From Dastarcus helophoroides (lineage: Eukaryota > Arthropoda > Insecta > Coleoptera > Bothrideridae), in NCBI GenBank assembly GCA_028583605.1, contig CM053337.1, positions 14,210,769-14,274,768 on the forward strand: 64,000 nt of DNA. The letters run 5' to 3'. The translations under genes and the position numbers were made by a program. Each line of letters begins with the position of its first letter. The first letter of the stretch is position 1. The notes under the pieces are model-generated. The model was not told the origin of the DNA. It made no database searches and saw nothing but the letters and a program-made list of their open reading frames with translations. Positions 44,147 to 64,000 of this stretch are shown here, piece by piece.

Positions 44147-44317
44147 TTAGGGGGTAAAAGCGATGAGCATTATTATATAAATGATGCAGTAAATGATAAA
44201 ACAAAGTCTGTCGATCACTTTGGCGAAGATTAACCAGTCTTGATTTTCCTCGGTGTTACTCTGCGTGTTAGCCACTATTGTTGATCCATCTTCTTCACCT
44301 TTAGCTGACGCAACACC
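44147..44317 (-). CDS. nAChR-like shared membrane module exon 8: TM4 and stop
   Basis: Acceptor cttcgtgcag. An acidic linker leads to NQDWLIFAKVIDRLCFIIY and the rest of TM4, with stop TAA at 44149-44147. The W-x-x-x-A-x-V-x-D-R-L entry to TM4 is the classic nAChR C-terminal signature. Confidence 0.92.
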   Translation of the reverse strand, partial: GVASAKGEEDGSTIVANTQSNTEENQDWLIFAKVIDRLCFIIYCIIYIIMLIAFTP

Positions 44318-47300
44318 CTGCACGAAGAAAACATGAAACATTAATCACTTTTTTTTGTATATCACAGAATCACCTTCAAGGAGTAATCGTTCAGTAAGAT
44401 AATTTGACCCGGCCTGCAACCTATCAAAAAAGAAACGAACGAAGAAACCCATGATGGAGCTTGATTCTTTGTACATATCAGGTTTTTCAAAATCACCGTT
44501 AAAACGATCGTAAAGGTGCATAAAAGCAAGGAGTCTCTCGAATAGGAAACTGAAAAATAATAACAAATCAGGTAAGTCGTTCTCGCATTGTAACTATAAT
44601 TGATTAATGAAAAAATTCTCACCCAATTTAGGAACGTTGTCACCTTTAATTGGAATGGAGTAAGAAATGTACTGAAGATGCATAAACTGGCTGACGAAGT
44701 TAACGTAACAGAGGGTTAAACGGTCCTTATTTGTGGGAGATATCCACAACGAGGTTAAAGTTGTTATGAATATAACTGGAAGTGAATAACTTTATTGGAG
44801 CAATGTCACGCATGAATACATCGTTAATTTTCAGAAATAAATAAACCCCCTACGCTTACATAAAAAGTGGGGTAACAAATCAAGAGCAAACAATATAAAA
44901 ACGATGGCATCCAGACTTAATCCAGTTTTAAATTAACAGATTTAATAAAATTGAGTCGAAGCTTTAGGAAGCCAAACTATGACATTCAGACCCAATCCAG
45001 TTTTAAGTTAACATATTTAATAAAATACAATTAAGTCAAGTCAAAGCCTTAGAAACTGATGACATTCAGACTTAATCGAATTTTAAATTAGCAGATTTAA
45101 TAAAATTGAGTCGAAGCATTAAGAAGCCAAACGATGGCATTCAGATTGAAGCCAGTTTTAAGTTAACAGATTTAATAAAATAAAATTAAGTCAAGTAGAA
45201 GCCTTAGAAGCCAAACGATGGCATTCAGACTTAATCAAGTTTTAAATTAATAGATTTAATAAAATTGAGTCGAAGCATTAAGAAGCCAAACGATGGCATT
45301 CAAACTTAATCCAGTTTTACATTCGCAGATTTAATAAAATTAAGCAGAAGCCTTAAGAAGCCAAACGATGGCATTCAGATTTAATAAAATTTTAAATTAA
45401 CAGATTGTATAAAGTTAAGTCTAAGTCTTAAGAAGCCAAACGATGACATTCAAACCTAATCCAGTTTTAAGTTAACAGATTTAATAAAATTAAGTCGAAA
45501 GGGAAACTGACTAGATATCTAAGTCGAAGCCTTAAGAGGCTAAACGATCCCTTCAGTCTACAAGCCAAAGCCAATTCAGTTTCCTTCAATTTTTCTAGCT
45601 GGAACATTTTGATAGTTCGAAGGGCTTCTGCCAGAACCAATGCAGCGTGTTTAAAAATGATTTCATCACACCACACTTTTACCTAAAGAAGGCCCAAAAT
45701 ACATAGCCCCGTGGCCCGAGTGCAACCTCTTTATCTCGAAACACAAAGCGCAAATAAGCGGTAGTGTTACTGGGGTACGATTTGAGGCGCGAGGGCATAG
45801 CGAATGCTTCAGCTTTGATGATCTTCCAATCGCTGCTTCCCCGTATCAAGTCGAGACTCAGCGAAGGTTTTGATAAAGTAAAATTCACTTGTAGCCCGTT
45901 GTAAACCGATGATCCAAAATATAACGTGCACATGTTCATGTCGAAGGGGAAATTTGTCAAATCGGTGATGCAACCTGCTGTGAAGTGCAACGGAGGCGTG
46001 CATTTCACCAAACCGTTGTAGTATAAGACGCAGTGGGATGCCTTCTCGAGAACGAAGGGGCTGTCGCCGAAGTTTTCCCTTAAATTGATGAATTTAGTAT
46101 GAGTTTGGGGGGAGGTTACCTAGGGGAATCACCTGTTGTACATTGCTAGGTCTGGTGTCCAAATGCGCTGTTCTCTGAGTGGTACGCTGCTCATTCCGCC
46201 GTATCGTTGTGGGTCCCACTTCAAATGATCATCGTACCATTGCTATAAGATTAAAAGGATTTTGCTCAATAATGCCCAGATAGTAAAAAGCAACATAAAT
46301 CATCAAAATAATCTCCGAATTAAGAGGGGGATTTGGAGGCTGCAATTTGCGGAACCGGGAGGGACCATGACTCAATCAAAGTGCTTCCCTTTTGTTACGT
46401 TGTTAACGGATATTTAATTAGTAACTCGATTAGTAAAACCCAGATAGTAGAGCAACATAAATCATCAAAATAAACAGAATTTCCGAATTAAGAGGGGGAT
46501 TTGGGAACTCTAATTTACGGACCCCGGAGGGACCATGACTCAATCAAGAATGCTTCCCTATTCGTTATGTTGGCAATGGATATTTAATTAGGGACAAAAT
46601 ACATCGGCACCTCGGAAAAATAACATACAACACATCAACCCAACTATTTTCGAACTTTTTTTTCAAATTTTTTACTTTTTTTAATTTCGTATTTTTTGAA
46701 ATTTCTTAGAATTCCATTCCATAAAAATTTCGACTTTTTTTTCTTTTCTAATTCGTCGTTCTAAAATGTCGACTTGTTTCTTCAAATTCGACATTTTCTG
46801 AAAATTTCGACTTTAAAACCCGTATGCAAGTAGAATGCAACCTAGACTACAAATTCATGCAGCCCTCCAGGCGGCGTGTATAGTGAATCATAGGTAGCTG
46901 AACTACCAACAGTTGAAACACTGCCACCTAGCGAAGCGGTTGCTCTCTAGGAAAGTTCCCAGAAGGACAAGCCTGGAGGGCTGCATGAATTTGTAGTCTA
47001 GGTTGCATTCTACTTGCATACGACATTGTTGGCGATGGCCATAGTTTCTCTATGGACCAATAGGTGGTAGTACTAAGAGTCACTCGCTTGACGCCTGTGA
47101 ATGTTTTAGTACTTGTCGAACATTTGTTAGCATTCGAAGTTGGATATCCCAAACTGACGAGATCTAACAAGATCGAAACCGGTATTTGGTTTTCAACCTT
47201 CGAATCTAATAAATGTTCAAACCTATTGGTCTGTGCATATTAGGATTTAAAATCCGGTTTTCTGAAAATTCCGCCTCGTCTTATTTTCGAATATTCTACT

Positions 47301-50300
47301 TTTGTCTAAAAATTCGATCATTTGAGTTCTCGAATTTTCGACTTTTTTTCGAAATTCGTTTTTTAGTCAAAATTAGGAAGAAATTTTGATGAGAATGTCA
47401 AAATTTGGCGAAAAACTGTCTCTTCAAATTTATCCCCAAATTTCAAGTGGGTAAAAATTTCGAGAAAACTTCGATTTTTTCCCCAAAAAAGTGTTATTTT
47501 TCAAATATACTTTAAATAATAAACCATTTCGAAAAACAATATTTGTTTCGAAATTTTAAGAAAGATATTTCTTCAAAAAACTTTCAAATTTTAAGTCAAT
47601 GTCAAAATTAAATACAAAAATAAAAATTACAAGAAAATCACTTTAAAAATTTCGACTTTTTTGGAAATTCGATTTTTTCTTTAAATTTAATTATTGTTTA
47701 CCAAATTCCACATTTTTTTTAAATACTGTTGCGCGTTATCGGTTCGAATGATTAACACGTGAATTGTAACCACTTTATTTCTAAACTGAACTCGGTACAC
47801 TACAATTGCAATTCACTAACACTGTTTAATTAACCAACTTATTCATTGAATTCTAACTAACTACCTGACTAACTAACTGCCCCTAAGGGAAAGTCGACCG
47901 CCTTATATAAGTCCCGCCTCGGAATTTTATAAGAATTCAGCAGATAAGGCTTATCGTTTGCCGAAATTTCTCGAGGGCTTATCTGCCGTTTGATTTATTA
48001 TCGCGGCCACTCCCTTTTATCAAATTTTCTAGAAAATTCCCAACTAAACTTTATAATTGTTTTTTGTTACACTACTTATTCAAAATTCGGTCGTTTTTTC
48101 TTAAAATTTCGAAAAACATTCTTCATATTTTTAGAGAAATCCTTCGAGTTTTCAGAGTAGGATTATTTTCTTTTGAATTTAAAAGGTAATTTTTGTAATT
48201 TATTGCTAAGTCGAACTTCAGAGAAAAAAATCAAACTTTTAGTTCAAGAAAAATTGTTTGTTAAGAAATTGTAACTTATAACTAACTGGGTGGTGGTTAG
48301 CGTAGATTTTTGGGGTTTTCAGAATGAACAGAGAAAACTACGGTATTCGCGATTTTATTCTTCTAGGTTAGGTTACAAACAACGCACATGTATCTATCTT
48401 ATGACATGCCGAACTCGAACTCCTCATTTCCCTTCGGAATCACGCGATCTCTCTGCCGTGTCAAGTGGCAGGGTCGGCGTTCCGTTATTTTACGCGTTAC
48501 AAAGTTTTTTTTTTAACCTACTTCAGTTGGGAATTTCAGGTTTAAGCTCGCTTGCCTCGTAATTTCAATTTTAAAATCGAAATTCAATGAAAAAAATCGA
48601 AACTAAGAGAACAAATAAATAAATAAAAATTTGGAAACCATTCAAGTTTGAAGTCGAATTTTTTGAAATTAAATTCTGAATTAATAACTTCTTTGGTGCG
48701 AAATTATAACATCGTTTCCACAATATCACACAGTCTACAGACAAAGGCATAAGAGTTTGAAGTGAGAGTTTTTTTGTTTCTTAAATGTTGCTTTTTAATA
48801 CTTAAGCAACTTTCTATTTGTTTATGTACTTCCACCTAAAAAGAGTTCTCTATTGAAAGTTAATTAGAGACTTACCATTGTGACCCAACTATCAACTTCG
48901 AAAGTACGCGTTACGTCATTCTGAAAAGTGAATCTTTAAATATTCTGAAAAATTGATTTAAATGTTTTTTAAAAACTTACATACTCAAATCCCATAACGC
49001 TCATGCCAACCTTCACTTGAACGGAGTTCTTATAATTTAAAACTGGCCTCGTATCCGGATTATAATTACAAAATAGGGTATCTTTTAACTGAATTTCGGG
49101 AATATAATTTTTTGGCTCACATCGAGCAAATGAGGTATCTTAAATAATTATTGGTTAGCGAAAGATTTGATTACGTTTTAAATAAAAGTGAATCTTACCG
49201 ATGATGGTAAACATAAGAACTAGGGACCATCTGATCGACACCATTTCATTAATAACACTGACACAACTGCACCACTGGTGGATTTTTTTGTTGTTGTTGC
49301 ATAATTAGTAATATAATATTTTTTTTTAGGTTTACGCCCCAGCAGATCAAAGGGATCATTTAAGATGCAATTAACGTATCGTCTGCATTCGACTGATAAG
49401 AATTTTTAGATAATATCAGCTGCAACTTTAGACGACTTTATGTTCCATAGTTCCCCATTAATTATCCTGTAAGCTTTAGGAAGAAAAAGAACAGCTTTAT
49501 TAGAACACTTAGGGCGGTGTGAGTCGGGGACACTTTGGGCAGTGCTTCCCAAAATCTGGTCCGCGTATCCCCAGGGTTACGAGAAGAATTTGGTGGACGG
49601 TGCGCGCTGCACCGAGCGGCTTCAGACTACTCAAAAATTACAAATAAATTGTCTGGAGAGACATAACAAAACTGAATTAGGTTGTACAGCTTTGAAGAGT
49701 TCGTGCAGATTGCAGAATGATGTTTTGTTCAAATTCGTTCGAATATTCAACGTCACGAAAAATTATGGAAAAGTATACAGATTTCGAAAGTTTAAGAAAC
49801 GCCGACTTTGGGGATTAAGTCTGTCCATTCTGTCGGTCTGTCTGTCTGACTGGGGTAGTTGAACTAAACTATTTGTACGATGGTGGTACTTCTTTCGAAA
49901 ATATATGTCAACTTTGTTATCCATATTAATAAAATCGAAGCGTCTCTCTGTCCGTCGACTGATATTTTGTCCGGGCTAATCTCGGAAACTGTTGAATCGA
50001 TTTTGATAATTTTGTTCCTAAAATGTAGAGTATTTTTAGGGTTACCTTTTAGGTTATATTTATTCCAGAAAAACTTAACCTTTCACTTTTAATTTAACTT
50101 ATAACAACTTAATTTGATGTTATAACACCGGACGTATAAGAAAAACCAATCCGCGGGCAATATCGTAATAATGTAATATTATGCGCCACCTACAGGTGCA
50201 ATGGGTACTAGAATTTGCTTTGAATGTATTATTCTGTTAAAATCGAATGAGAAATTATTTTATTTTAAAATTGATGTTATTAGACATTTACGCAAAGCCG

Positions 50301-53300
50301 TGGGGCTCAGCTAGTCGTCACTAAAATTAGAAAGGATAGATTGCAAATTGTTATAGTCAAGTTTTAAAAGAATTCTCAAAACTTCGACATTAATACGAAG
50401 TCGCAACGGTCAATTGAAATATTTGGATTTTTCTCGGTATCTTAATATTTAATCTGAAAGTTCAAAACTTTCAAGAAAAAAGTTAAAATTTTGAAATTAC
50501 GAAAAATACTTTCAATTTCCTTTTTAGGGATTCGACCTTTTTTGTCAAGTAGCACTAAACGTCTTTTATTTATACTTCGCTCTGAATTAACACTGAATGC
50601 CAACGTAGAAACCTAGAAGATTAAAAAATTCAATCACTTACCTACGGAAGGGATGATAACGGTGGCCGAATGGCTCGAGTACAACCTTTTTATTTTAAAA
50701 CTAAAGTGTAACGAGGGGTAGGTATTATTGGGCATACTCTTGTACACTCCTGGGAATCTGAATGCGTTACTTTTGACAATTTCCCAGTCGCCATTCGATT
50801 CGATATCGTCCAAAAGTATCGCTGGATCCGACAATGTAAAATTGATCTCTTCTCCAGCGTGCACCCATGAGCCGAACCTCAAGCTGCAGTTTTGCTCATC
50901 GAATGGAAACTTTGTCAAATCTGCCACACAGAGAGCCGTGTGGTGCGTCGGAGGCACGCAAACTACGATGCCGGTGCTCGCTACGATGCAGTGGGCGCCT
51001 TCGACAGCCGCCGGGGATCCCCCTTGATTAGCCCTGAAAAATTTCAATCACCGTCACCTACTGTCCACATTAAGACCCTGGCACCCTTTCCTTTACGGTT
51101 CTTTCACACGGAGCACTCGCGAGCGCAAGCTTTTTCCGCCCCTACGTTCCAGTGTAAAGGCCCGTGCGTCCCGTGTGAAAGCTCCATTGTACTCATTACA
51201 TTTCAATCTTGGGAGTTGTCCGCTCGCTCGCGAGCGCGAGTCTTACGGCTCTCCGTGTGAAAGAGCCGTTAGGTTTAGCGCGCGCCGTTCCAATCGCTCG
51301 CGAAAGAAATGTCAGTCTAAATGTAAATAGGTCACTTGGGACAAAATCGTGGAGAATTGATTCGAGGTAAAAGACCGTGCGCGGATGGAACGTTGCATTC
51401 CTAGTTACAAACGTCTGGAACAGCACGTTTCTTTACGCGCGACTGACGTACGTACCGCTTGGAACGCGCGACTGGCGCGTCCTGACCAGGGCGCGCGACT
51501 GGCGCGTTCTGACAAGAACGCGCGAGTGACGCGTCCTGACCAGAGCGCGCGACTGGCGCATTCTGACAAGAGCGCGCGACTGGCGCGTTCTGACCAGAGC
51601 GCGCGAAAAGTCTGTCAGTGTAAAGGCATCTAACTAGATCCAAAGACGAGTTAATAAATGTTCTCGAAGTGAAAATAGCTTACGTTGACTAGAAAATTTG
51701 AAATTGTAAACAGAACATTTTCGTAATTTTTAGGTTTATGGGTGGTGGAATTTCATTCTGGTCACCCTAACCCAACGAAGTGGGTAAGTTTACGTTTAGA
51801 CAGGATTTCACGCTTTCAGCCGTACAAAGCTCCCGAGAAAGCTAACGCCTCTAAATGAAACGCTTCTTGCTACTAACAAACGAACGCTCTGGCGAAACTG
51901 GGTTTACTAATTTTGAGATTAATTTCGAATAGTTAGACCTTTATATAATTACATTATCTAAAGGCGCGTACTGACTTGAATGTGCATGCTTTTAGTCCAA
52001 GCGCTTACACATACATACGCATGTGTACCAACTCAGAACATTTGTAGATATTTATTGCCTCGCACGCATGTGTGTTGTTTCACTCCTTTCCGGTCATTCG
52101 TGCATGTCTTCTCAAAAATAATAGTTATTTTTTGTTTTACTTGTTTTACATTATTTACCTACCGATTTAACTTATCGGTCATTTCATCCCAGGCATCTAC
52201 CTTTTTATTTTTAGAGGAGTGGAAGGAATTTTTTGCATCCTCCAAAATGGGATGTTGTTCGTACAAATCAATTAATTGTAAGCATTCTTCATTAGACTAC
52301 TCCATTCTGTCTTTATTAAAACCGTTATTTGGCAAAAACTCTTTACAGTAAGGAACACTTAATTCTGGTGCATGCATTAGACTACTGCAGATTTGCAGAT
52401 TAACAAAAATCCGTCCATACTGAGCGCACATGCACGATATATTTCTTTTGAGAGGAGCCAGAGACCGACAGCCGTCGGCTCAGGCCATGCGCGTTCGCGG
52501 TCGCTCGCGAGAAGTTAAACATGCTCCGAGTCATTGTGAATGGCACGTCCAGATTTGAATGCGAATGTGCGTTTGCTTCGACTCAGCGCATGCACATTCA
52601 AATCAGTACGCGCCTTAAGAGTTACAAACTTCTGGAACACCACGTTTCTTTACGCGCGACTGACGGATTCTGACGAGCGCGCGCGAAGAGACTGTAAGTG
52701 TAAAGGCCTCTAACTAGATCCAAGACGAGTTAATAAGGTTCTCAAAGTGAAAATAGCTTACGTTGACTAGAAAATTTGAAATTGTAAACAGAACATTTTC
52801 CCAATTTCTAGGTTTATGGGTGGTGGAATTTCGTTCTGGTCACCCTAATCCAACGAGGTGAGTAAGTTTACGTTTAGACAGGATTTCACGCTTTCAGCCG
52901 AACAAAGCTCCCGAGAAAGCGAACGCCTCTAAATGAAATGTTTCTTGCTGCTAACAAACGAACGCTCTGGCGAAACTGGGTCTACTAATTTTGAGGTTAA
53001 TTTCGACTAGTTAAACCTTTATATAATTACATTATCTAAGAGTTACAAACTTCTGGAACACCACGTTTCTTTACGCGCGACTGATGCGTTCTGAGGAGCG
53101 CGCGCGAAGAGACTGTAAGTGTAAAGGCCCCTAACTAGATCCAAGACGAGTTAATAAGGTTCTCAAAATGAAAATAGTTTAGGTTGACTAGAAAATTTGA
53201 AATTGTAAACAGAACATTTTCGCAATTTCTGGGTTTATGGGTGGTGGAATTTAGTTCTGGTCACCCTAACCCAATGAGGTGGGTAAGTTTACGTTTAGAC

Positions 53301-55032
53301 AGGATTTCGCGCTTTCAGCCGAACAAAGCTCGCGAGAAAGCGAACGCCTCTAAATGAAACGCTTCTTGCTGCTAACAAACGAACGCTCTGGCGAAACTGC
53401 GTCTACTAATTTTGAGATTAATTTCGAATAGTTAAACCTTTATATAATTACATTAATCTAAGAGTTACAAACTTGTGGAACACCACGTTTCTTTACGCGC
53501 GACCGGCGCGTTCTGACGAGCGCGCGCGAAGAGACTGTAAGTGTAAAGGCCCCTAACTAGATCCAAGACGAGTTAATAAGGTTCTCAAAATGAAAATAGT
53601 TTAGGTTGACTAGAAAATTTGAAATTGTAAACAGAACATTTTCGCAATTTCTGGGTTTATGGGTGGTGGAATTTCGTTCTTGTCACCCTAACCCAACGAG
53701 GTGGGTAAGTTTACGTTTAGATAGGATTTCGCGCTTTCAGCCGAACAAAGCTCGCGAGAAAGCGAACGCCTCTAAATGAAACGCTTCTTGCTGCTAACAA
53801 ACGAACGCTCTGGCGAAACTAGGTTTACTAATTTTGAGGTTAATTTCGAATAGTTAGACTTTTATATAATTACATTATCTAAGAGTTAGAATATGAATTC
53901 CTATATCTACTTCATTATGCGGACTCGCTAAATAACATCCCCAAACAAATTAAGGCTAGCCTTCTATTTTGACCTGCCGTCGTCGTCGACGGTCCACCGA
54001 TAGTCCTTCAGAGGAGATAGCTCCTTAAACTTTCGACATCACGTAACACGCCAGAGCATTTTCTCTTTGGAATATGTAGTACACGGCGTGCTGCTTAATA
54101 TAAATTTAAGCTTTTGAAAGCACGAAGTAGTGAACTGAGAATTCGCTGGCACGAAGCAATGAACTGAGAATTCGCTGGGACGAAGCAGTGAATTGAGAAT
54201 TCTCTAGCACGATCTTGATGGTACCCGTTATTGACTAATATTTAGTAGAATCCCACATTGCTTTGGTTTTTGAGTTAATTTAGCACGAGGCTTGAGGACT
54301 TGATGGACTTATGGATTCCCTTTTGGCAGTTGCGCCAAGAAATCGACATTTTCAAAAACAGAATTTTTTAAAACTTGCATAAAAGTCCACGTTTAGATTT
54401 TAAACTCAAAAATTATTCCGAAGTGGCTCAAATTTCTAATGAAATTTCCCTGGAGCTCTACAGGATCAATTTAGGGCATTTTTATGGCTACAAATTGAGT
54501 GTTTAAAAAGTTGAAAACATACCTGTTGTAAATGGAAATGTCGGGCATCCAAATTTCCGAGTCCTTGAGTGTTATTGATTCGATCCCATCGTACTTCTTG
54601 GGGTCCCACGTTAGATGCTCATCTTTCCAATGCTGCAAATAGATCTCACAATTATTTGTAAATGATGGGGAATGTGAACTTACCATCGACATCCAACTGT
54701 CTACTTCCAAAGAACTGGATAATTCATCCTGAAACACAACGTTGGAGTAGTCAAAATCACAATTCGATCAACTCACATAAGTGAAATATTTCAGGATCAT
54801 TCTTATAGTAACTTTGGTGGTATTTTGGTGGTTTCTGACCGGTCTGATGTCAGGATAGTAGTTGCAAAATAGATTATTCTTTAGATTGATAGCTGGGATA
54901 GTATCCTTGCCATCGCACGTATCGTCCTCGTAAGATGAAGCTGAAAATCACTCGGTGGCGTTAACGTTTTAAGAGTTAGAAATTCTTCTTACCGATAGTC
55001 GCTAATAAGACGAGTAGAAGTCCTGCAGACAT
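44147..55032 (-). CDS. Divergent nicotinic acetylcholine receptor-like (Cys-loop) subunit: cassette B plus shared membrane module
   Basis: Predicted pentameric ligand-gated channel subunit in the plasma membrane. The in-frame model joins exons 55032-54993, 54940-54777, 54728-54684, 54632-54523, 51033-50642, 44775-44623, 44549-44374 and 44317-44147: 1251 nt, 416 aa. Order: signal peptide, N-terminal helix region, W-x-P-D loop A, a canonical 13-residue Cys-loop (CVADLTKFPFDEQNC), TM1 across the 50642/44775 junction (SATVIIPSV + VIFITTLTSLW), TM2, TM3, a short cytoplasmic loop and TM4. There is no vicinal Cys pair in loop C, so it is a non-alpha subunit. It fits the fast-evolving insect subunits of the beta3 kind; I do not assign an orthologue. 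The final intron join skips cassette A (5.9 kb) and is inferred from matching phases and the absence of any other membrane exons for cassette B. Confidence 0.6.
44374..44549 (-). CDS. nAChR-like shared membrane module exon 7: TM3 and short cytoplasmic loop
   Basis: Acceptor ttatttttcag, donor TTGAAG|GTGATT, phase 0 out. It encodes SRDSLLLCTFTIVLTVILKN (TM3), then KNQAPSWVSSFVSFLIG, matching the family's post-TM3 P-x-W-V-r-x-x-F helix. The TM3-TM4 loop is very short compared with typical nAChRs. Confidence 0.85.
44623..44775 (-). CDS. nAChR-like shared membrane module exon 6: TM1 end, TM2
   Basis: Acceptor cacttccag, donor TTGG|GTGAGA, phase 1 both ends. It encodes VIFITTLTSLWISPTNKDR, then a divergent TM2 (LTLCYVNFVSQFMHLQY) and SIPIKGDNVPKL. 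By hand alignment on RLTL versus KVTL, the usual 9' Leu is Val, and polar residues (Asn, Gln, His) line positions that are normally hydrophobic. Confidence 0.85.
44885..45480. repeat. ~77-bp tandem repeat, about eight copies, in the intron before TM2 exon
   Basis: AAGCCAAACGATGGCATTCA plus a TTTAATAAAATT(G/A)AGTC block recurs roughly every 77 bp from about 44903 to 45445. It lies between cassette A exon 5 and the membrane module. Confidence 0.88.
45683..46078 (-). CDS. nAChR-like cassette A exon 5: Cys-loop, with one-base frameshift
   Basis: Encodes ASHCVLYYNGLVKCTPP, Cys-loop CITDLTNFPFDMNMC, FGSSVYNGLQVNFTLS and LRFVF, then leaves the family frame at CGAGATAAAG. The homologous bases in cassette B lack one base, and the alternate frame reads KRLHSGHGAMYFGPSL, matching cassette B's KRLYSSHSATVIIPSV. 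Acceptor caatttaag, donor TTTAG|GTAAAA. Confidence 0.85.
46133..46242 (-). CDS. nAChR-like cassette A exon 4: loop A
   Basis: A 110-nt exon encoding QWYDDHLKWDPQRYGG and WTPDLAMYN. Acceptor aatcttatag, donor AACAG|GTGATT, phase 2 out. Confidence 0.92.
46262..46600. repeat. ~177-bp direct duplication in cassette A intron 3
   Basis: CCCAGATAGTA...GCAACATAAATCATCAAAAT to GATATTTAATTAG is present twice (about 46270 and 46438). Confidence 0.88.
46821..47022. mobile_element. Foldback/MITE-like element with perfect 51-bp inverted repeats
   Basis: 46821-46871 (starting CGTATGCAAGTAGAATGCAA) and 46972-47022 are exact reverse complements with a 100-bp spacer. No obvious TSD immediately outside. A transcript crossing it would form a long hairpin. 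Confidence 0.85.
47045..47245. repeat. Imperfect inverted repeat with hammerhead-like core
   Basis: GGACCAATAGGT (left) and ACCTATTGGTC (right), and GAACATTTGTTAG with TCTAATAAATGTTC, pair around CTGACGA-GATCT-aaca-AGATC-GAAAC (47154-47179), which fits the CUGANGA/stem II/GAAA pattern of hammerhead ribozymes. Confidence 0.4.
47270..48700. repeat. Degenerate AAATTTCGA simple repeat, block 2, with a solo LTR inside
   Basis: AATTTCGA/TTTTTTC words as at 40560; interrupted by the LTR at 47727. 48290-48560 is less repetitive, with an unremarkable open frame. Confidence 0.7.
47727..48071 (-). mobile_element. Solo LTR, copy 5 (degenerate TSD ATAC/CTAC)
   Basis: TGTTGCGCGTTATCGG to TTTTTGTTACA; matches copy 4's ends. 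It lies in the 2.6-kb intron of cassette A, sense to the receptor transcript. Confidence 0.8.
48876..48920 (-). CDS. nAChR-like cassette A exon 3: 45-nt exon
   Basis: Encodes 15 residues ending FEVDSWVTM. Acceptor acttttcag, donor ATG|GTAAGT. The 2.6-kb intron after it holds a solo LTR, a perfect inverted repeat and a 177-bp duplication. Confidence 0.9.
48981..49138 (-). CDS. nAChR-like cassette A exon 2
   Basis: Encodes FARCEPKN, LFCNYNPDTRPVLN and VQVKVGMSVMGFEY. Acceptor ttatttaag, donor TAT|GTAAGT, phase 0 out. It carries the same two Cys as cassette B exon 2. Confidence 0.88.
49199..49244 (-). CDS. nAChR-like cassette A exon 1: signal peptide
   Basis: ATG at 49244, hydrophobic leader ending TII, donor ATCG|GTAAGA in phase 1. 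The last 7 bases plus donor are near-identical to cassette B exon 1, supporting duplication. Confidence 0.72.
49540..49750. mobile_element. hAT-like terminal fragment (candidate)
   Basis: Begins CAGTGCTTCCCAAAATCTGG, resembling hAT TIRs (CAGTGGTTCTCAA type). The inner part recurs at 13000 and 31090. No second TIR or 8-bp TSD found. Confidence 0.3.
49885..50314 (+). mobile_element. Helitron-like non-autonomous element (candidate)
   Basis: Ends with a small hairpin (AGCCgtggGGCT, 50296-50307) just before CTAG (50311-50314), followed by T, the 3' pattern of Helitrons. The 5' limit is uncertain. It sits between the two receptor cassettes. Confidence 0.33.
50642..51033 (-). CDS. nAChR-like cassette B exon 5: Cys-loop, loop C, start of TM1
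   Basis: Acceptor aaatttttcag, donor GTAG|GTAAGT. It encodes GAHCIVASTGIVVCVPP (V-x-C-x-PP in place of the usual W-x-PP), Cys-loop CVADLTKFPFDEQNC, FGSWVHAGEEINFTLS (sequon NFT) and FKIKRLYSSHSATVIIPSV at the start of TM1. No loop-C CC. It ends in phase 1. The 1.4 kb between here and cassette A holds no exon that continues TM1; the first downstream acceptor (about 50612) gives eight codons and a stop. Confidence 0.92.
51096..51268. mobile_element. PIF/Harbinger-like MITE (TSD TTA)
   Basis: TIRs CGGTTCTTTCACACGGAG and, inverted, CGGCTCTTTCACACGGAG, with TTA at 51093-51095 and 51269-51271. 173 bp; interior rich in CGCGAGCG palindromes. It lies in cassette B intron 4. Confidence 0.75.
51457..51606. 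repeat. 27-bp GC-rich minisatellite (GCGCGACTGGCGCGTTCTGA)
   Basis: About five copies of a 27-bp unit alternating Tn(A/C)(A/C)(A/G)AG spacers; being 3n, it gives ARLARSDQS-like open frames on both strands that I regard as spurious. Confidence 0.88.
51962..52615. mobile_element. PIF/Harbinger-like MITE (TSD TAA), 654 bp
   Basis: TIRs AGGCGCGTACTGACTTGAAT and, inverted, AGGCGCGTACTGATTTGAAT, with TAA at 51959-51961 and 52616-52618. The other tandem copies show the uninterrupted site (ATCTAAGAG), which confirms a 3-bp TSD. No transposase seen inside. Confidence 0.9.
53886..54522. other. Intron sequence of cassette B
   Basis: A short direct repeat (CACGAAGCA(A/G)TGAA(C/T)TGAGAATTC, about 54120-54205, three copies); otherwise nothing seen. 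Confidence 0.5.
54523..54632 (-). CDS. nAChR-like cassette B exon 4: loop A
   Basis: A 110-nt exon, acceptor ctatttgcag, donor AACAG|GTATGT. It encodes HWKDEHLTWDPKKYDG and WMPDISIYN, which is the W-x-P-D loop A of the agonist site. Phase 2 out, as in cassette A. Confidence 0.92.
54684..54728 (-). CDS. nAChR-like cassette B exon 3: 45-nt exon
   Basis: Acceptor tgtgtttcag and donor ATG|GTAAGT. It encodes 15 residues ending LEVDSWMSM, the conserved W-containing strand. Exactly the length and phase of cassette A exon 3; this 45-nt exon is a hallmark of nAChR genes. Confidence 0.9.
54777..54940 (-). CDS. nAChR-like cassette B exon 2: N-terminal extracellular region
   Basis: Acceptor gattttcag and donor TAT|GTGAGT. 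It encodes DTCDGKD and NLFCNYYPDIRPVRN, the family's N-terminal Y-x-P-x-x-RPV block. Two cysteines (DTC and LFC) match two in cassette A and could form an extra disulfide. Phase 0 out. Confidence 0.88.
54993..55032 (-). CDS. nAChR-like cassette B exon 1: signal peptide
   Basis: ATG at 55032 begins MSAGLLLVLLATI, and donor ATCG|GTAAGA follows. Phase 1 out. It is a short hydrophobic leader that continues into exon 2 (Ala-Ser-Ser). The equivalent exon in cassette A has the same position and phase. Confidence 0.75.
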
Positions 55033-58000
55033 AATTACCGAATCTAAAACACTGCGACTGGACGTTGGGTTTCCAATTCCACCGGTAACATAATATTTTG
55101 CCGCCCTCCGCCCTAAATAGATAAACATGTAACCAGTCACATAAAGATGCAAATAATTCAACGATATCAGTTTCTGATGTGTGATCAATTTTCGGTTGCA
55201 ACAGTCTATCTGCTACAACATAATATTGTAATTATTTTGTGCTTCCGGTGAGCTGATTCTAAAATATAGAGGTCGATTAATAATTATAAATTTGAACGAC
55301 CCTGACGGTTTAATAAACGATTGATGTGAACGTGTTTTACTGTATTTTTTTAAGATTCTAAGAAAAATAAAATTTTACGATATTGCTTTCGTTGGGGAAT
55401 GCCAAACAGAGACGTATTAGACGTTTGTCGAGAGCGCCATTAGAAACGTTTTATGGATTTCTCTGGTTAAATTACGTTTATTTGTAACGATTCCTTTGCT
55501 TTTGTTTCTAACCAATGTTAAATTAAAAATGTTTAACGAAGGTGGCCACAATCCTGATAAAGAGCGAGGTAATAAAATGTTCCATTGACTGAAAATAAAC
55601 AATCCACTATTTTCGATTAAAGCAAAGGTTGTGCATAAACATATTTTTGTAATAACTGAAGGACAAATGCAGATGCGTTTAATTCTGAACAAATTTACTT
55701 TAAAACAGCGTCCCCGAAACCATTTTCTGTAAAAAAAAATATTGACGGTTTTTCCTTTAATTTAGAATCTTAAATATAAAGTCAAAAAATTCGAAAAAAA
55801 TCTTAAAAACTATCAAAATTTTGAGATTGTTTGTTCAAGAGAAAGTGACAATTTAAAAAAATGGTTTAGTATAATTCTTTTTTTCTCAAAACTTAAACAA
55901 TCTACAAAATTAAAATTTCAATAAAAGATTCTCTGGGAAACGTTCGAATATTTATCAAAACTTAATTCGCGCAATTTCGATCTTTTTTTTCGAAATTTCG
56001 GTCGTTTTATTGAAATTGTTGTCTCGAATTTTCAAACTAATTCGTTTTGTCTCTGGAAAGTTCAATTACTTTTCTCGAAATTCGTCTTTTTCTCGAAATT
56101 TCAATCATCTCGAAGTTTCGAACTTTTTTCAAAATTCGATTTCTGGAAATTTCGATATTTTTTTTGAAATTTGTTTTCCCTCGATATTTTTCTCAAAAGT
56201 CATATTTTTTTTTTAATTTTGAATACTAAGAAATTCGATCTTTTATTTTCTGACAAATGCAACTTTTTCCTTGAAATTGGTCTTTTTCGAAAAATTTCAA
56301 TTTTTACAAAATTCGTCCTTTCCCTAAACGACTTTCCTCAAAATTTGACCTTCTGCGCGAAATTTCTATTTTTGTTCTCCAAATTTCGTCTTTTTCTCGA
56401 AATTTGTCTTTTTCCAGAAATTTCTACCATTTTCTTCAAAATTCGTCCTCTTTAGAAATGTCGACACTATTTTTTGGAAAAACTTTGAATTTTTATTAAA
56501 TTTATATTTTTTCTCGAAATTTAGATCTTTTTTTTCGAAATTCGTCTTTTTCTTGAAATTTCGATCATTGACCTTTTTTTAAAATTCGTTTTGTTTGTAA
56601 AAATGTTATTTTCCTCGAAATTCATCTTTTCTCGAAATTTGTCTTTCTCGAAATTATATCAATTTTATTCAAAATTCGTCCTCTTTAGAAATTTCAACAA
56701 AAGACTCTTTAGAAAATGTTTCAATTTCATTAAATTTCGACTTCTCCGCGAAATTTCGATCTTTTTCTCGAAGTTCTTTATTTCGAAATTTCGAACTTTT
56801 TTCAAAATTCGTTTCGCTTCTGAAAATTTTGATATTTTTTCTTGAAATTCGTCTTTTCCTCGATATTTTTCTCACAATCAGCATTTTTTTTTTTGAAATT
56901 TTAACTTTGATCACGAAATTCTATTCTTTATCTTCCTGAATATCTCAACTTTTTTCTCGAAATTTTTGGAAATTCGTCTTCGAAATATTTCGATTTTTTT
57001 CAACATTTTTTCCTAAACGAGTTTTCTCAAATTGCACGAAATTTCTATTTTTTGGTTCTCGAAATTTCGTCTTTTTCTTGAAGCTGATCTTTTTTCTCGA
57101 AATTTCGACCATTTTCTTCAAAATTCGTCCTCTTTAGAAACTTCGACGCTCTTTTTGGAAAATTTTTGGATTTTTATTAATTTCGATTTTTTCCTCGAAA
57201 TTTCGGTCTCTTTTTCGAAATTTGCCTTTTTCTCGAAATTTCGATAATCTCAAAGTTTCGAACTTTTTTCAAAATTCGTTTTGTTTCTGAAATATAATGA
57301 TATTTTCTCTAGAAATTCGTCTTTTTCTCGATATTTTTCTCAAATTCGTCTGTTTTCTTTAGTTTTGACTTTGCCACGAAATTCGATCCTTTATCTTCCT
57401 GAAAATCTCAACTTTTTGTTCGACATTTTTTGAAGTTCATTTTTATCGAAAATTTTCGATTTTTTTTAAAATTTGTCGTTTTCCTAAACGACTTTTCTCA
57501 AAATTTGACTTTCTGCACGAAATTTCTAATTTTTTGTTCTCGAAATTTCGTCTTTTTCTCGAAAATGGTCTTTTTCTCTCGAAATTGGTCTCTTTTTCTC
57601 GAAATTCGTGTTTTTCTCGAAATTTCTACCATTTTATTCGAAATTCGTCCTCTTTAGAAACTTCGACGCTCTTTTTGGAAAATGTTTGGATTTTTATTGA
57701 TTTCAATTTTTTCCTCGAAATTTTGATCTCTTTTTCGAAATTTGCCTTTTTCTCGAAATTTCGATAATCTCGACGTTTCGAACTTTTTTCAAAATTAGTT
57801 TTGTTTCTGAAAAGTTTGATATTTTTTCTCGAAATTCGTCTTTTTCTTGATATTTTTCTCAAATCCGTTTTTTTTTTAATTTTGAGTTTACCACGACATT
57901 CGATCCTTTATCTTCCTGAAAATCTCAACTTTTTGCTCGAAATGTTTTAAAGTTCGTCTTTTTCGAAAAATTTCGATTTTTTTTTAAATTCGACGTTTTC

Positions 58001-60344
58001 CTTAACGACTTTTCTCAAAATTTGACTTTCTGCGCGAAATTTCTATTTTTTTGTTCCCGAAATTTCGTCTTTTCTCGAAATTCGTCTTTTTCCTCGAAAT
58101 TCGTCTTTTTTCTTGAAATTTTTTTCTTGAAATTATCTCGAAATTCGTCTTTTTTCTTGAAGTTTTCTCGAAATTCGCCTTTTTTCTCGATTATTTCGAT
58201 TATTTTTTTCAAAGTTCATCTTTTTTAGAAATCTCGACAAAAAAATCTTTTTAGGAAATTCGAATTTATATTAAATTTCGATTTTTTATTCGAAATTTCG
58301 TTCTTTTTCTCGAAATTTTAATCGTCTCGAAATTTCGAACATTTTTTGAAGATAATTCATTTTGTTTCTGAAAATTTGAATTTTTTTTAATTGAAATTCT
58401 TTTTTTTGTCGAAATTTTTTTCAAAATTGGTCCTTAAAAATTGACAAAAAGATCATTTTGAGAAATGTTCGATTTTTTTCGACTCTTTTCTTGAAATTTC
58501 GATCTTTTACACGAAGTTTAGATCTTTTATTCGAAATTTTGATTTTTTCTCGTAATTTCTATCTTCTCAAAGTGTCGAACTTATTTCAAAATTCGTTTTG
58601 TTTCCGGAAACTTCGATTTTTTCTTGAAATTCGTCTTTTTCTCGATATTTTTTCAAACGTCTTTTTTTGAAATTTTGATGTTACTACAACATTCAATCCT
58701 TTATGTTCCTGAAAATCTCAACTTTTTCTTCGAAATTTTTTTGAACTCGTCTTTTTCTAAACGATTTTTCTCAAAATTTGGCTTTATCAGCAAAATTTCT
58801 ATATTTTTGATCTCAAAATTTCGTCTACTCGAAATTCGTCTCTTTTTCTCGAAATTCGTCTCTTTTTCTCGAAATTCGTCTCTTTTTCTCGAAATTCGTC
58901 TTTTGTCTCGAAATTCGTATTTTTTCTTGACATATTTTTCTCGAAACTCATCTTTTTTCTCGGAATTCGTTTATTTTTTAGGAATTTCGACTCTTTTTTT
59001 CAAAATTCGTCTTTTTTAGAAATGTCGACAAAAAAAGGTTTTTAGGAAATTCGAATTTATATTAAATTTTGATTTTTTATTCGAAAGATCGTTAATTTTC
59101 TCAAACATTTTTTTGAAAATAATTCATTTTGTTTCTGGAAATTTGGATTTTGTTTAATTGAAATTCGTTTTTTTGTCGATTTTTTTTTAAATTGGTCCTT
59201 AAAAATTGACAAAAAGATCATTTTGAGAAATGTTCGATTTTTTTCGACTCCTTTTTTGAAATTTTGATTTTTTCTCGTAATTTCTATCTTCTCAAAGTTT
59301 CGAACTTATTTCAAAATTCGTTTTGTTTCCGGAAATTTCGAACCTATTTCAAAATTCGTTTTGTTTCCGGAAATTTCGATATTTTTTCGAAATTCGCCCT
59401 TTTCTCGATATTTATTTCATACGTCGTATTTTTTTTGAAATCTACTATTTCTACTACAAAATTCGGTTCTTTATGTTTCTGAAAATCTTAACTTTTTCTT
59501 TGAAATGTTTTTAAATTCGTCTTTTCCTAAACGACTGTTCTTAAAATTTGACTTTCTCAGCAAAATTTCTATTTTTTTGTTCTCAAAATTTCGTCTTCTC
59601 GAAATTCGCCTTTTTTTCTCGAAATTCGCCTTTCTTCTCGAAATTTGACTTTTGTCTCGAAATTTGTCGTTTTGGAAATTTCGACAAAAAAATCTTTTTA
59701 GGAAATATTGAAATTTGTGTTAAATATCGACTTTTTGTCCGAAATTTCGTCTCGAAGTTTCAATCGTCTTGAAATCTCAAACGTTTTTTCAAAATAATTT
59801 ATTTTTTTTCTGAAAATGTCGATTTTTCTGCTCGAAATTGGTCTCTTCGAAATTTTAACTTACCTCAAAATTCGATCTTTTATGTTTCTGAAAATCTCAA
59901 TTTTTTCCTCGTAATTCTTTGAAATTAGGTCTTTTTGGAATTTTTTTTTAATTGGTCTTCATTCTAAACAACTAAAAATTTGACTTTCGGCGCCAAATTT
60001 CTATTTTTTTTTTGTTCCTGAACGTGCTTTCAAAATTCGTCTGTTTTTCTCGAAATTGGTCTTTTTCTTGGAATTTCGACTGTTTTTTTAAAGTTGCTCT
60101 ATATTTAGTAATCTCAACAAAAAAAGCTTTCAAGGAAATGTTCGAATTTATGTTAAAATCCGATTTTTATTCGAAATTTCGATTTTTCTCGAAATTGGAT
60201 CGTCTCGAAATTTCGAACTTTTTTTCAAAATAATTCGTTTTGTTTCTGGAAATTTCGATTTTATTAAAATTCGTCTTTTTTTTTGGAATTTCGACTATTT
60301 TATTAAAATTGGTCTTTAAAAATTTCGACTAAAGTCTTTTTTTG

Positions 60345-60475
60345 GTGGAACAGACTGGTCCTTGGTTTTCAAAAATTGAAATACAAATCTTGTCCCTTGA
60401 AACCATGAAAGATTAAAAAACACAACAAAGCTTGCTCTAACGCGTTTCGACAGCCAAGCTATCATCTTTAGTGAG
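60345..60475 (-). mobile_element. Penelope-like 3' tail with hammerhead-like motif (candidate)
   Basis: Unlike its flanks. On the - strand CTAAAGA, then stem GATAGC-TTG-GCTGTC, then GAAACGCG, fits a hammerhead core except CUGA to CUAA. Such motifs are known in Penelope-like element termini. Confidence 0.4.
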
Positions 60476-61959
60476 TTACTGGGTCTTTTTCTCGAAAGTT
60501 CGATATTTTACTCAAAGGTGGTCTTTTTTTGGAAATTTTCACTTTATGTCAAAATTCAAATCTTTATGTTTCCGAAAATCTCAACTTTTTCTTCGAAATT
60601 CGTCTTTTTCGAAATTATTCCTATTCATTTTTCAAAATTCGTCTTTTTCAAAAATATTCCGATTAATTTTTCAAAATTCGTCTTTTTCAAAAATATTTCG
60701 ATTCATTTTTCAAAATTCGTCTATTTTGAAAATATTCCGATTCATTTTTCAACAGTCGTCTTTTTCTTAAACGAATTAACTCAAAATTTGACTTTCTAAG
60801 CAAAATTTAAATTTTTTGTTTCCGAAATGTCCTCTTTTTCAAGAAATTCGTCTTTTTTTCTCGAAATTCGTATTTTTCTCGGAGTTTCGACTACTTTTTC
60901 AAAATTGATATATAAGAATTTTAACAAAACTTCTTTTTGGGAAATATTCGAATTTTTATTCAATTTCGACTTTCTTCTCCAGAATGCAATCTTTTGCTCG
61001 AAATTTTTGATTCTTTTTTCGAAATTTCTATCCTCTCGGAGTTTCGAAGCCGTCAGATGTCCTCTTTTTCTCGAAATTCGTCTTCGTCGGAGTTTCGACT
61101 ACTTTTTCAAAATTGGTCTTTAAAAATTTCAACAAAAGTTTTTTTGGGAAATATTCGAATTTTTATTCAATTTCGACTTTTTTCTCCAGAATGCAATCTT
61201 TTGCTCAAAATTTTGATTTTTATTTTTCGAAATTTTTATCGTCTCGGAATTTCGAAGCCATCAAATGTCCTCTTTTTTCGAAATTCGTTTTTTTTTCTCG
61301 AAATTCGTCTTTTTCTCGGAGTTTCGGCTGCTTTTTCAAAATTGGCCTATAAAAAGTTCAAGAAATTTTTTTTTGAAATATTCCAATTTTTATTCAATTT
61401 CGACTTTCTTCTCCAGAATTCAATCTTTTGCTCGAAATTTTTGATTCTTTTTTCGAAATTTCTATCCTCTCGGAGTTTCGAAGCCGTCAGATGTCCTCTT
61501 TTTCTCAAAATTCGTCTTTTTCTCGGAGTTTGGCTTACTTTTCCAAAATTGGTCTTTAAAATTTTCAACAAAAAAGCCTTTTTGGGAAATGTTCGAATTT
61601 TTACTAAATTTCGACTTTTTTCCAGAATGCGATTTTTTGTTCGAAATTTTGATTTTTTTTCAAAATTTCTATCGTCTCGAAGTTTTGAATTCGTTTTGTT
61701 TCTTTTCGATTTTTTTCTCGAAATTAGTCTCGATTTTTTTCTCAAAAGCAGTCTTTTTTTAGTTTTTACTTTGCCACCAAATTCTATTCTTTGAAATTCG
61801 TCTTTTTCCTAAACAACTTTTCCCAAAATTTCACTTCCTATGCGAAATTTTAATTTTTTTGCAGCCATTCCTTTTTTTTTTTAAATTCGTTCTTTCCTCG
61901 GAATTTCGACTAATTTTCGCAAATTTGGTCATTTTCCAAAATTCGTCTTTATCCAAAAT

Positions 61960-62960
61960 TTCGATTATTTGAAATTCGTCTTTTTCCTAAACAACTTTTC
62001 CAAAATTTCACTTCATGCGCGAAATTTTAATTTTTTTGCGGACATTTCTTCTTTTTTTCGAAATTCGTCTTTCCCTCGGAATTTCAACTAATTTTTGCCA
62101 AATTGGTCTTTTTCCAAAACTCGTCGTTTTCCAAAATTCTTCTTTTTCCAAAATTCGTCTTTTTCCAACATTCGTCTTTTTCCACAATTCGTCTTTACCC
62201 AAAATTTCGATTATTTAAAATTCGTCTTTTTCCTAAACAACTTTTCCCAAAATTTCACTTTATGCGCGAAATTTTAATTTTTTTGCGGACATTTCTTTCT
62301 TTTTTTCGAAATTCGTCTTTCCCTCGCAATTTCGAATAATTTTTGCAAAATTGATCTTTTTCCAAAATTCGTCTTTTTCCAAAATTCTTCTTTTTCCAAA
62401 ATTCGTCTTTTTCCAACATTCGTCTTTTTCCACAATTCGTCTTTATCCAAAATTTCGATTATTTAAAATTCGTCTTTTTCCTAAACAACTTTTCCCAAAA
62501 TTTCACTTTATGCGCGAAATTTTAATTTTTTTGCGGACATTTCTTTCTTTTTTTCGAAATTCGTCTTTCCCTCGCAATTTCGAATAATTTTTGCAAAATT
62601 GATCTTTTTCCAAAATTCGTCTTTTTCCAAAATTCTTCTTTTTCCAAAATTCGTCTTTTTCCAACATTCGTCTTTTTCCACAATTCGTCTTTATCCAAAA
62701 TTTCGATTATTTAAAATTCGTCTTTTTCCTAAACAACTTTTCCCAAAATTTCACTTCATGCGCGAAATTTTAATTTTTTTGCGGACATTTCTTTCTTTTT
62801 TACGAAATTCGTTTTTCCCTCGCAATTTCGAATAATTTTTGCAAAATTGATCTTTTTCCAAAATTCGTCTTTTTCCAAAATTCTTCTTTTATCAAAATTC
62901 GTCTTTTTCCAACATTCGTCTTTTTTTACAATTCGTCTTTATCCATTTAGATTTTTTAAA
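61960..62960. repeat. 248-bp tandem repeat, about four copies
   Basis: Identical open frames starting at 62103, 62351 and 62599 show an exact 248-bp period with few differences, so it is much younger than the surrounding array. Confidence 0.93.
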
Positions 62961-63289
62961 ATTCGTTTTTGTCATAAAAGATTATGCTGAAAAGCTGACT
63001 GTACGAAATTTCGAAAAACAAACGATTTATTTTTAAAAAATCTGACTTTTACACCTAATTTTAAGGAGAAACATTTTGAGTTTTAGGTCGAAATTAACAA
63101 ACGTGAACAACTAACCAAAAATATCGAAATTGATAATATTTTATTGAAAATAAAATTCAAATTGAAGTCGCCATTATAGGAAGACAAAATTTAAAAAAGA
63201 ATTACAAAAATCCCACTAGAAATTTAAGATAAAACTGTTGGTTTCTTCACAAAGTTTTAAATTTAATCTAGGACTTTTGCTAAAGCACT

Positions 63290-63504
63290 GAACTAAACAC
63301 TGTGGCTTGTGATTAAGTCCAAAGAAGGTTTCACCCCTTTACCACATCGGCAATTAAATAAATAATTACGCGATACGTATTTCGCCAGCAGAACTGGCAT
63401 TTTCAAGCGCACTAATCTTAAAAGATTAGCAAAAGATGCATCGACGTCATCTGCATTGAGATTCAAATCGATACTGGCGGTCTTTTGCTTTTTTTTTCCT
63501 ATTT
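63290..63504 (-). mobile_element. Penelope-like element 3' untranslated region
   Basis: Follows the GIY-YIG stop. On the - strand GCCAG-ttct-GCTGGC-GAAATACG (63376-63404) resembles stem II plus GAAA of a hammerhead, with a degenerate CTTGAAAA where CUGANGA is expected. Confidence 0.45.
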
Positions 63505-63840
63505 CTAATTGTTTAACACATCTGGTGCATGCAATTTTGACCTGCCACAAATAGCCTTCAATAAACTGGAGGCCGCCAATGGTCCCTTATCTCCGTTAAG
63601 GGTAACTGGCCTCTGATTAATATAAATTGTTTCGTATGCATCAAGTTCTCTGCTATTTGTGACCGATCTTAACAATTTTAAATTTTCAATGTTAATTTTG
63701 TGTCCTGTATTTATCATATGTAGGGCGACACTTGATTTTTCTTCTCTATTGTATCTGAAATGAGCGATATGTTCTTTAAATCTGGTTTTAATGGATCTCT
63801 TGGTCTGTCCAACATATGATAAACCGGAATTTACGAAATA
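63505..63840 (-). pseudogene. Penelope-like element: C-terminal GIY-YIG endonuclease fragment
   Basis: The - strand frame ending at TAG 63507-63505 reads LSYVGQTKRSIKTRFKEH, HMINTGHKINIENLKLL and RELDAYETIYINQ: the Y-V-G-Q-T, R-x-x-x-H and E motifs of the GIY-YIG nuclease that follows reverse transcriptase in Penelope-like elements. The frame is cut off upstream: the first GIY motif is missing and simple repeat takes over near 63850. Nothing of the reverse transcriptase is in the window. 5'-truncated, dead. Confidence 0.85.
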
Positions 63841-64000
63841 AGCTGTAACAATTGTAATTTCGAATCTAAGCTTAGAACGTAAGATTCTTTAATTTCGGAT
63901 GTTTTTAACCCGAGGAAAGTCCAAATTTCGACTTCTCTGAAATTTTGGAATCAACTTCAACAAATCGACTTCTCTGAAATTTTGGGATCAAAATTTGGAG

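Follow-up and report, generated by a model that had tools for sequence, protein, structure and literature searches.

The window, i.e. the whole 64-kb stretch of DNA that was analysed, carries on its minus strand the thirteen exons of a Cys-loop receptor gene between positions 55032 and 44147. These exons follow each other in the order B1-B5, A1-A5 and T1-T3, where B and A are two ligand-binding cassettes and T denotes the transmembrane (TM) exons. The features are as follows:

54993..55032, minus strand: cassette B exon 1, 40 nt; start ATG, hydrophobic start
54777..54940, minus strand: cassette B exon 2, 164 nt; orthologue profile E 5.2e-14
54684..54728, minus strand: cassette B exon 3, 45 nt
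54523..54632, minus strand: cassette B exon 4, 110 nt; orthologue profile E 2e-16
50642..51033, minus strand: cassette B exon 5, 392 nt, phase 1 at end; Cys-loop, loops B and C; profile E 2.4e-56
49199..49244, minus strand: cassette A exon 1, 46 nt; start ATG, hydrophobic start
48981..49138, minus strand: cassette A exon 2, 158 nt; acceptor AAG; profile E 2.6e-8
48876..48920, minus strand: cassette A exon 3, 45 nt; weak profile match, E 1.6
46133..46242, minus strand: cassette A exon 4, 110 nt; profile E 7.9e-13
45683..46078, minus strand: cassette A exon 5, 396 nt, phase 2 at end; profile E 6e-24
44776..44791, minus strand: second possible acceptor for TM exon 1, lying 14 nt upstream of the usual one (AG at 44791-44790)
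44623..44775, minus strand: shared TM exon 1, 153 nt; TM1, KDR motif, TM2; profile E 3.2e-25
44374..44549, minus strand: shared TM exon 2, 176 nt; TM3 and start of a short loop; profile match
44147..44317, minus strand: shared TM exon 3, 171 nt including the stop; loop end, TM4; profile E 2.1e-27

The initial annotation had described two five-exon cassettes in front of one TM module, and its coordinates proved to be correct, with GT-AG at every intron of B, A and the TM exons. It had also given each cassette its own signal peptide; both A and B open with an ATG and a hydrophobic stretch, which would fit such a peptide. The further claim of matching exon lengths and phases is incorrect. Exons 3 and 4 are identical in length (45 and 110 nt), and exons 1 and 2 keep their phase despite differing lengths (40/164 nt in B, 46/158 nt in A). 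Exon 5, by contrast, measures 396 nt in A and 392 nt in B, so that A ends in phase 2 and B in phase 1 (exon sums of 755 and 751 nt, respectively).

This difference matters at the junction to the TM exons. As had been proposed, B joins the exon starting at 44775 in frame, and the 50642/44775 junction yields an open frame of 1251 nt and 416 amino acids; the intron between them spans 5.9 kb and contains cassette A. The corresponding junction of A (45683/44775) is out of frame and runs into a stop 16 residues past the junction. Relative to B, exon 5 of A carries a net +1 nt within 45726-45747, a stretch with no long homopolymer. This shift rests on one assembly.

A single TM set, with none between the cassettes, had been part of the initial annotation, and searches of the 64-kb window by tblastn and with orthologue TM profiles found no second one. 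The tblastn search for another set gave weak matches only (best E 0.37); those lying between the cassettes were two in number, both on the opposite strand, with E of 0.67 and 5.1. Profiles of the TM regions built from orthologues matched all three TM exons, and for hidden TM exons the four TM profiles, run in six frames, gave otherwise nothing better than E 0.34 among the first 10 matches per profile. Separate TM exons for cassette B were consequently rejected, as tblastn together with the four TM and two ligand-binding profiles in six frames showed nothing convincing beyond the known exons.

The introns also harbor repeats. Intron 4 of B contains three copies of a 421-bp unit (52616-53888, 95% matches). 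The intron between A and the TM exons has a 75/155-bp array at 44899-45499. The long intron 4 of B additionally holds an element of about 654 bp (51962-52615), which is flanked by TAA and interrupts a satellite unit. Its inverted ends form 46-nt arms (51957-52002 and 52575-52620, flanks included) that are 87% complementary, and we take it to resemble a small Harbinger-type insertion. Elsewhere in the window, follistatin-like coding stretches lie on the plus strand at 32672-33280 (follistatin N-terminal domain, 85.6 bits, and a Kazal domain) and at 34681-35055 (Kazal domain). On the minus strand, the open stretch 63505-63888 matches GIY-YIG weakly (E 0.003; at 18.2 bits it stays under the cut-off of 22.6) and is possibly the end of a Penelope-like retroelement. 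In the region 56001-64000, where GC and AT skew are negative, the G+C content drops to 27-31%; long low-complexity open stretches rich in Phe and Ser lie on its plus strand.

Concerning the identity of the gene, the ligand-binding domain PF02931 was matched with 164.4 bits by the protein joined from B and the TM exons (B+TM) and with 135.5 bits by A, at a cut-off of 26, and these matches are not due to chance. The channel domain PF02932 reached 25.9 bits on B+TM against a cut-off of 28.1, with the TM4 part alone aligned; the PF02932 mark was also absent in 20 of the sequences P0001-P0026. The top protein match came from Harmonia axyridis (54%; 36 hits); next came other beetles, among them Tribolium and Leptinotarsa ‘alpha9’. 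A near-identical protein was found in neither of the protein searches, in which 54% was the best value and of which the alignment-based one scored 7995 candidates sharing most words. Both in the ligand-binding tree (23 rows) and in the TM tree (24 rows), the window gene grouped with alpha9 orthologues, Tcas-alpha9 of Tribolium castaneum and its orthologues being the known genes most like B+TM. In both trees it stood beside ladybird rows and P0004, with supports of 85/90 and 93/93 that were not starred. Its end branch in the TM tree (0.23) was under the median of 0.30. The TM exon encodes NKDRLTL, in which KDR replaces GEK before TM2. The same replacement is described for Aethina alpha9 (PMC7017565), and Tribolium alpha9 is likewise described as being without GEK (PMC2064938). 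Judged by its sequence, the window gene is a member of the divergent beetle nAChR group called “alpha9”.

Two features set it apart from other beetle alpha9 genes, namely a second ligand-binding cassette in the intron before TM1 and the lack of the loop-C Cys pair. While the Cys-loop pair (C155/C169) is present in both A and B, the adjacent cysteines of loop C are replaced by Ser-Met in B and by Ser-Tyr in A. This pair is found in 24 of the 26 orthologue rows, P0005 having Phe-His and P0024 a gap at this position. Because the pair is absent from both cassettes, which share Ser at the first position, its loss probably predates the A-B duplication. Two further observations were made among the relatives. 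In Leptinotarsa (P0009/P0021), the predicted alpha9 isoform X3 is 51 residues shorter and misses the part matching the 153-nt TM1-TM2 exon, so that the boundary of this exon is probably common to both species. In Zophobas morio, the alpha9-like P0003 and P0038 (213/412 identical) each have their own TM part and come from contigs of the same length (6515531), possibly reflecting a separate full tandem duplication.

To describe the relation between the two cassettes, trees and pairwise identities were used. The claim that A and B are duplicates is borne out, as they are sister copies in the tree (100/98). Their end branches in the ligand-binding tree differ strongly, with 0.07 changes per column for B and 1.19 for A, i.e. 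about 17 times as long, and the tree tool flags A as a long end branch of unsure placement. The closeness of A and B nevertheless shows independently of the tree: the identity between them is 47% (45% in another alignment), compared to at most 35% between A and any orthologue (28-35% for A and 41-52% for B against the 26 orthologue rows). Synonymous sites between A and B are saturated (pS of 0.78 over 229 codons), at a pN of 0.36.

Despite this distance, there is no stop in the 236 codons of A. In 2000 neutral simulations, A remained stop-free in 0.55% of cases at 20% drift and in 5.6% at 10% drift. Of 43 conserved columns, defined on 19 reference rows after omission of seven of the 26 as partial or duplicate, B retains 41 and A 30. 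Among the columns in which B carries the majority residue, 30 of 41 conserved ones are retained in A vs 36 of 77 others (p 0.007). Since the 236 codons are free of stops and 30 of the 43 conserved columns are kept, the sequence of A argues that this cassette was maintained for a long time. A pseudogene that has long been drifting is unlikely, given the open frame and the preferential retention of conserved columns.

Relatives of the A type were sought as well. A search with A alone retained 0 of 63 candidates at E 0.001, but with an exact-word method that missed even known orthologues, so that this result carries little weight. A search with an alignment including A gave 33 hits at E 1e-20 and added P0037-P0040, none of which is close to A (47/220 to 69/225 identical). 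Between the A and B regions, a blastn comparison for shared intron or promoter sequence gave short, weak matches only.

At the residue level, the losses in A touch the binding site. The loop-B Trp, kept in B, is Ser in A, which is also without the two Tyr positions of loop C and the Cys pair but retains the Tyr of loop A and the Trp of loop D. The roles of these loop residues in the agonist site are known from nAChR structures. Within loop B (174-183) and loop C (213-228), A has lost nine of 13 conserved columns, compared to four of 30 elsewhere (p 0.0006, or 0.003 without the Cys columns), with loop bounds that were chosen after the losses were known. A simple split at residue 170 separates these losses just as well (10/15 vs 3/28, p 0.0003), so that relaxation of the last third of the domain, and not a targeting of the agonist site, may explain them equally well; the case for a targeted loss of the agonist loops was therefore dropped. 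Such a concentrated loss could still reflect a changed job instead of decay. The initial annotation had expected two different agonist sites on one pore. As assembled, the sequence does not support this: A has lost the loop-B Trp, the two loop-C Tyr and the Cys pair, the Cys pair is missing in B too, and A does not reach the TM exons in frame through 45683/44775.

The frame break of A can be dated only loosely. Past the +1 shift, 10 of 19 residues in the former frame of A still match B, hence the break is probably young relative to the A-B split, or else an assembly error or polymorphism. In the same tail, codon positions 1, 2 and 3 differ 8, 4 and 8 times in 18 codons. As third positions show no excess of change, constraint on the former frame in this tail is not evident, and the break may date back further than supposed.

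Possible ways around the break were scanned among the GTs in 45760-45600 and the AGs in 44900-44700. Among the alternative donors, none up to 45682 gives the phase for the normal acceptor. The AG at 44850 would fit in phase but leads into a stop, and this acceptor was dismissed. The AG at 44790 (exon start 44789) puts A, but not B, in frame, and A+TM becomes an open frame of 422 amino acids. Its first membrane segment scores 1.51 vs 1.52 for B over 24 residues and 1.61 vs 2.03 over 19 residues. For 27% of 3392 minus-strand AGs, an open upstream AG in the right phase lies no more than 20 nt away, and for 38% no more than 40 nt. The AG at 44790 is thus no rarer than chance and is no evidence for its use. 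One could imagine a shared TM exon with two acceptors 14 nt apart, each fitting one cassette, whose choice would act as proofreading; the locus would then make two subunits, the A form being an accessory subunit with its fold kept and no principal agonist face. We consider this very unlikely. A gene with alternative 5' cassettes on shared 3' exons would need both of them to enter those exons in frame; B does so, and A solely through this chance-level AG.

Altogether, the reading we favor, at a probability of roughly 60%, is that B+TM is the working gene, with cassette A as an old partial copy left behind in its intron that has lost its link to the pore. B would be transcribed from upstream of 55032 and spliced from 50642 to 44775 over the 5.9-kb intron. 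A would duplicate the ligand-binding half (exons 1-5, including a start of its own) and lie in the fifth intron of B, which is its only known sister. It would have been under selection for long, presumably also on the single TM module; then agonist-site residues would have been lost, and more recently the net +1 nt near its end would have severed A from the pore, so that A could no longer serve as a receptor subunit. Conservation of B extends to its last codons and the sole TM set lies downstream of A, therefore B transcripts would have to skip A. A exon 1 is without an acceptor, whereas A2-A5 have acceptors, and A2 is the first one met by B exon 5. The B5-A2 splice is in phase and open, so the skipping of A would need to be enforced. 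A2 and A5 have acceptors ending in AAG, as opposed to CAG in B, which fits a weaker use of the former without proving it. The two-subunit model of the initial annotation is thereby upheld in its architecture, i.e. two homologous cassettes before one TM module and a conserved, complete B+TM frame, and fails at the entry of A into the TM exons through 45683/44775. In the past the locus may plausibly have had two outputs, because A long maintained an intact frame and most of the conserved columns.

If both cassettes made subunits today on one TM module, two promoters would be needed, and the +1 nt would have to reflect an assembly error or a single allele, unless A uses 44789. GT-AG sites, the hydrophobic start, the 30 of 43 conserved columns and the lack of an internal stop in A are consistent with this, as is the 422-residue frame, whose first membrane segment is near that of B over 24 residues and lower over 19. 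Nevertheless, we regard it as unlikely. The plain A-TM junction is out of frame as assembled, the upstream AG performs no better than chance (27% and 38%, see above), the extra nucleotide lies outside any long homopolymer, and A combines an end branch about 17 times that of B with the loss of its agonist residues. Loss of the TM link, with the hydrophobic start and Cys-loop pair kept, would alternatively agree with A being a secreted, pore-less ligand-binding domain, acting as a decoy or modifier in the manner of acetylcholine-binding protein. Translation past its last donor reaches a TAA immediately, giving 252 amino acids, and the related P0025, a joined ligand-binding half, continues for 17 residues past apparently the same exon 5 boundary and then stops, which would fit retention of intron 5 in the RNA. 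Truncated insect nAChR transcripts have been proposed to serve as an acetylcholine sponge (PMC2045683). This explanation appears rather improbable, as A does not match the aromatic agonist box of acetylcholine-binding protein: the box is mostly lost, and usual acetylcholine binding is not expected. The tail of A is still B-like in the former frame, which would make a soluble form new, and poly(A) motifs are so common in the AT-rich sequence here that they prove nothing.

Another origin of this layout would be a full tandem gene duplication of which one TM set was deleted or misassembled, so that B or A would have a TM set of its own that the assembled order does not include. Tandem or adjacent nAChR genes are described in other beetles, namely Tribolium alpha8/alpha11 within 8 kb (PMC2064938) and Aethina alpha5/alpha12 (PMC7017565). 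Zophobas P0003 and P0038, with a TM part each and contigs of equal length, point in the same direction, and the tandem arrays at 52616-53888 and 44899-45499 could disturb assembly. Yet the exon order is continuous, and no TM relic was found on this strand in the 1.4 kb between the cassettes or elsewhere in the 64 kb, which makes such an event highly improbable.

The reading of A as a stranded duplicate can be compared to known systems. Like the window locus, human CHRFAM7A is a partial nAChR gene duplicate with a frameshift, in its case in one allele carrying a 2 bp deletion; it consists of CHRNA7 exons 5-10 fused to part of FAM7A (PMC11176066). At the window locus, by contrast, the 5' half was doubled in place and the 3' half is single. 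How a two-subunit model would work is illustrated by beetle gustatory receptor genes, in which several 5' units precede one 3' unit: alternative N-terminal exons are combined with common C-terminal exons, in forms annotated as putative splice variants (PMC6720082). In those genes the alternative unit is one N-terminal exon, unlike the two five-exon units found here, one of which is out of frame. Similarly, the alternative exons of insect nAChRs (alpha4 exon 4, alpha6 exons 3 and 8), thought to be tandem exon duplications (PMC2064938), are swaps of a single exon, while at the window locus an entire ligand-binding half, start codon included, has been doubled. Among the titles and abstract openings listed from the open-access literature, none described a whole ligand-binding half duplicated before one TM set.

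In conclusion, if A is a remnant, the locus would capture a partial receptor-gene duplicate late in its decay, in which frame and fold residues were long kept, agonist residues were lost and the link to the pore was then broken. Annotation could easily misread such a locus as two genes or as one fused gene. If both cassettes are live, nAChR diversity would extend beyond the single-exon swaps described in insects, in a family of insecticide targets.
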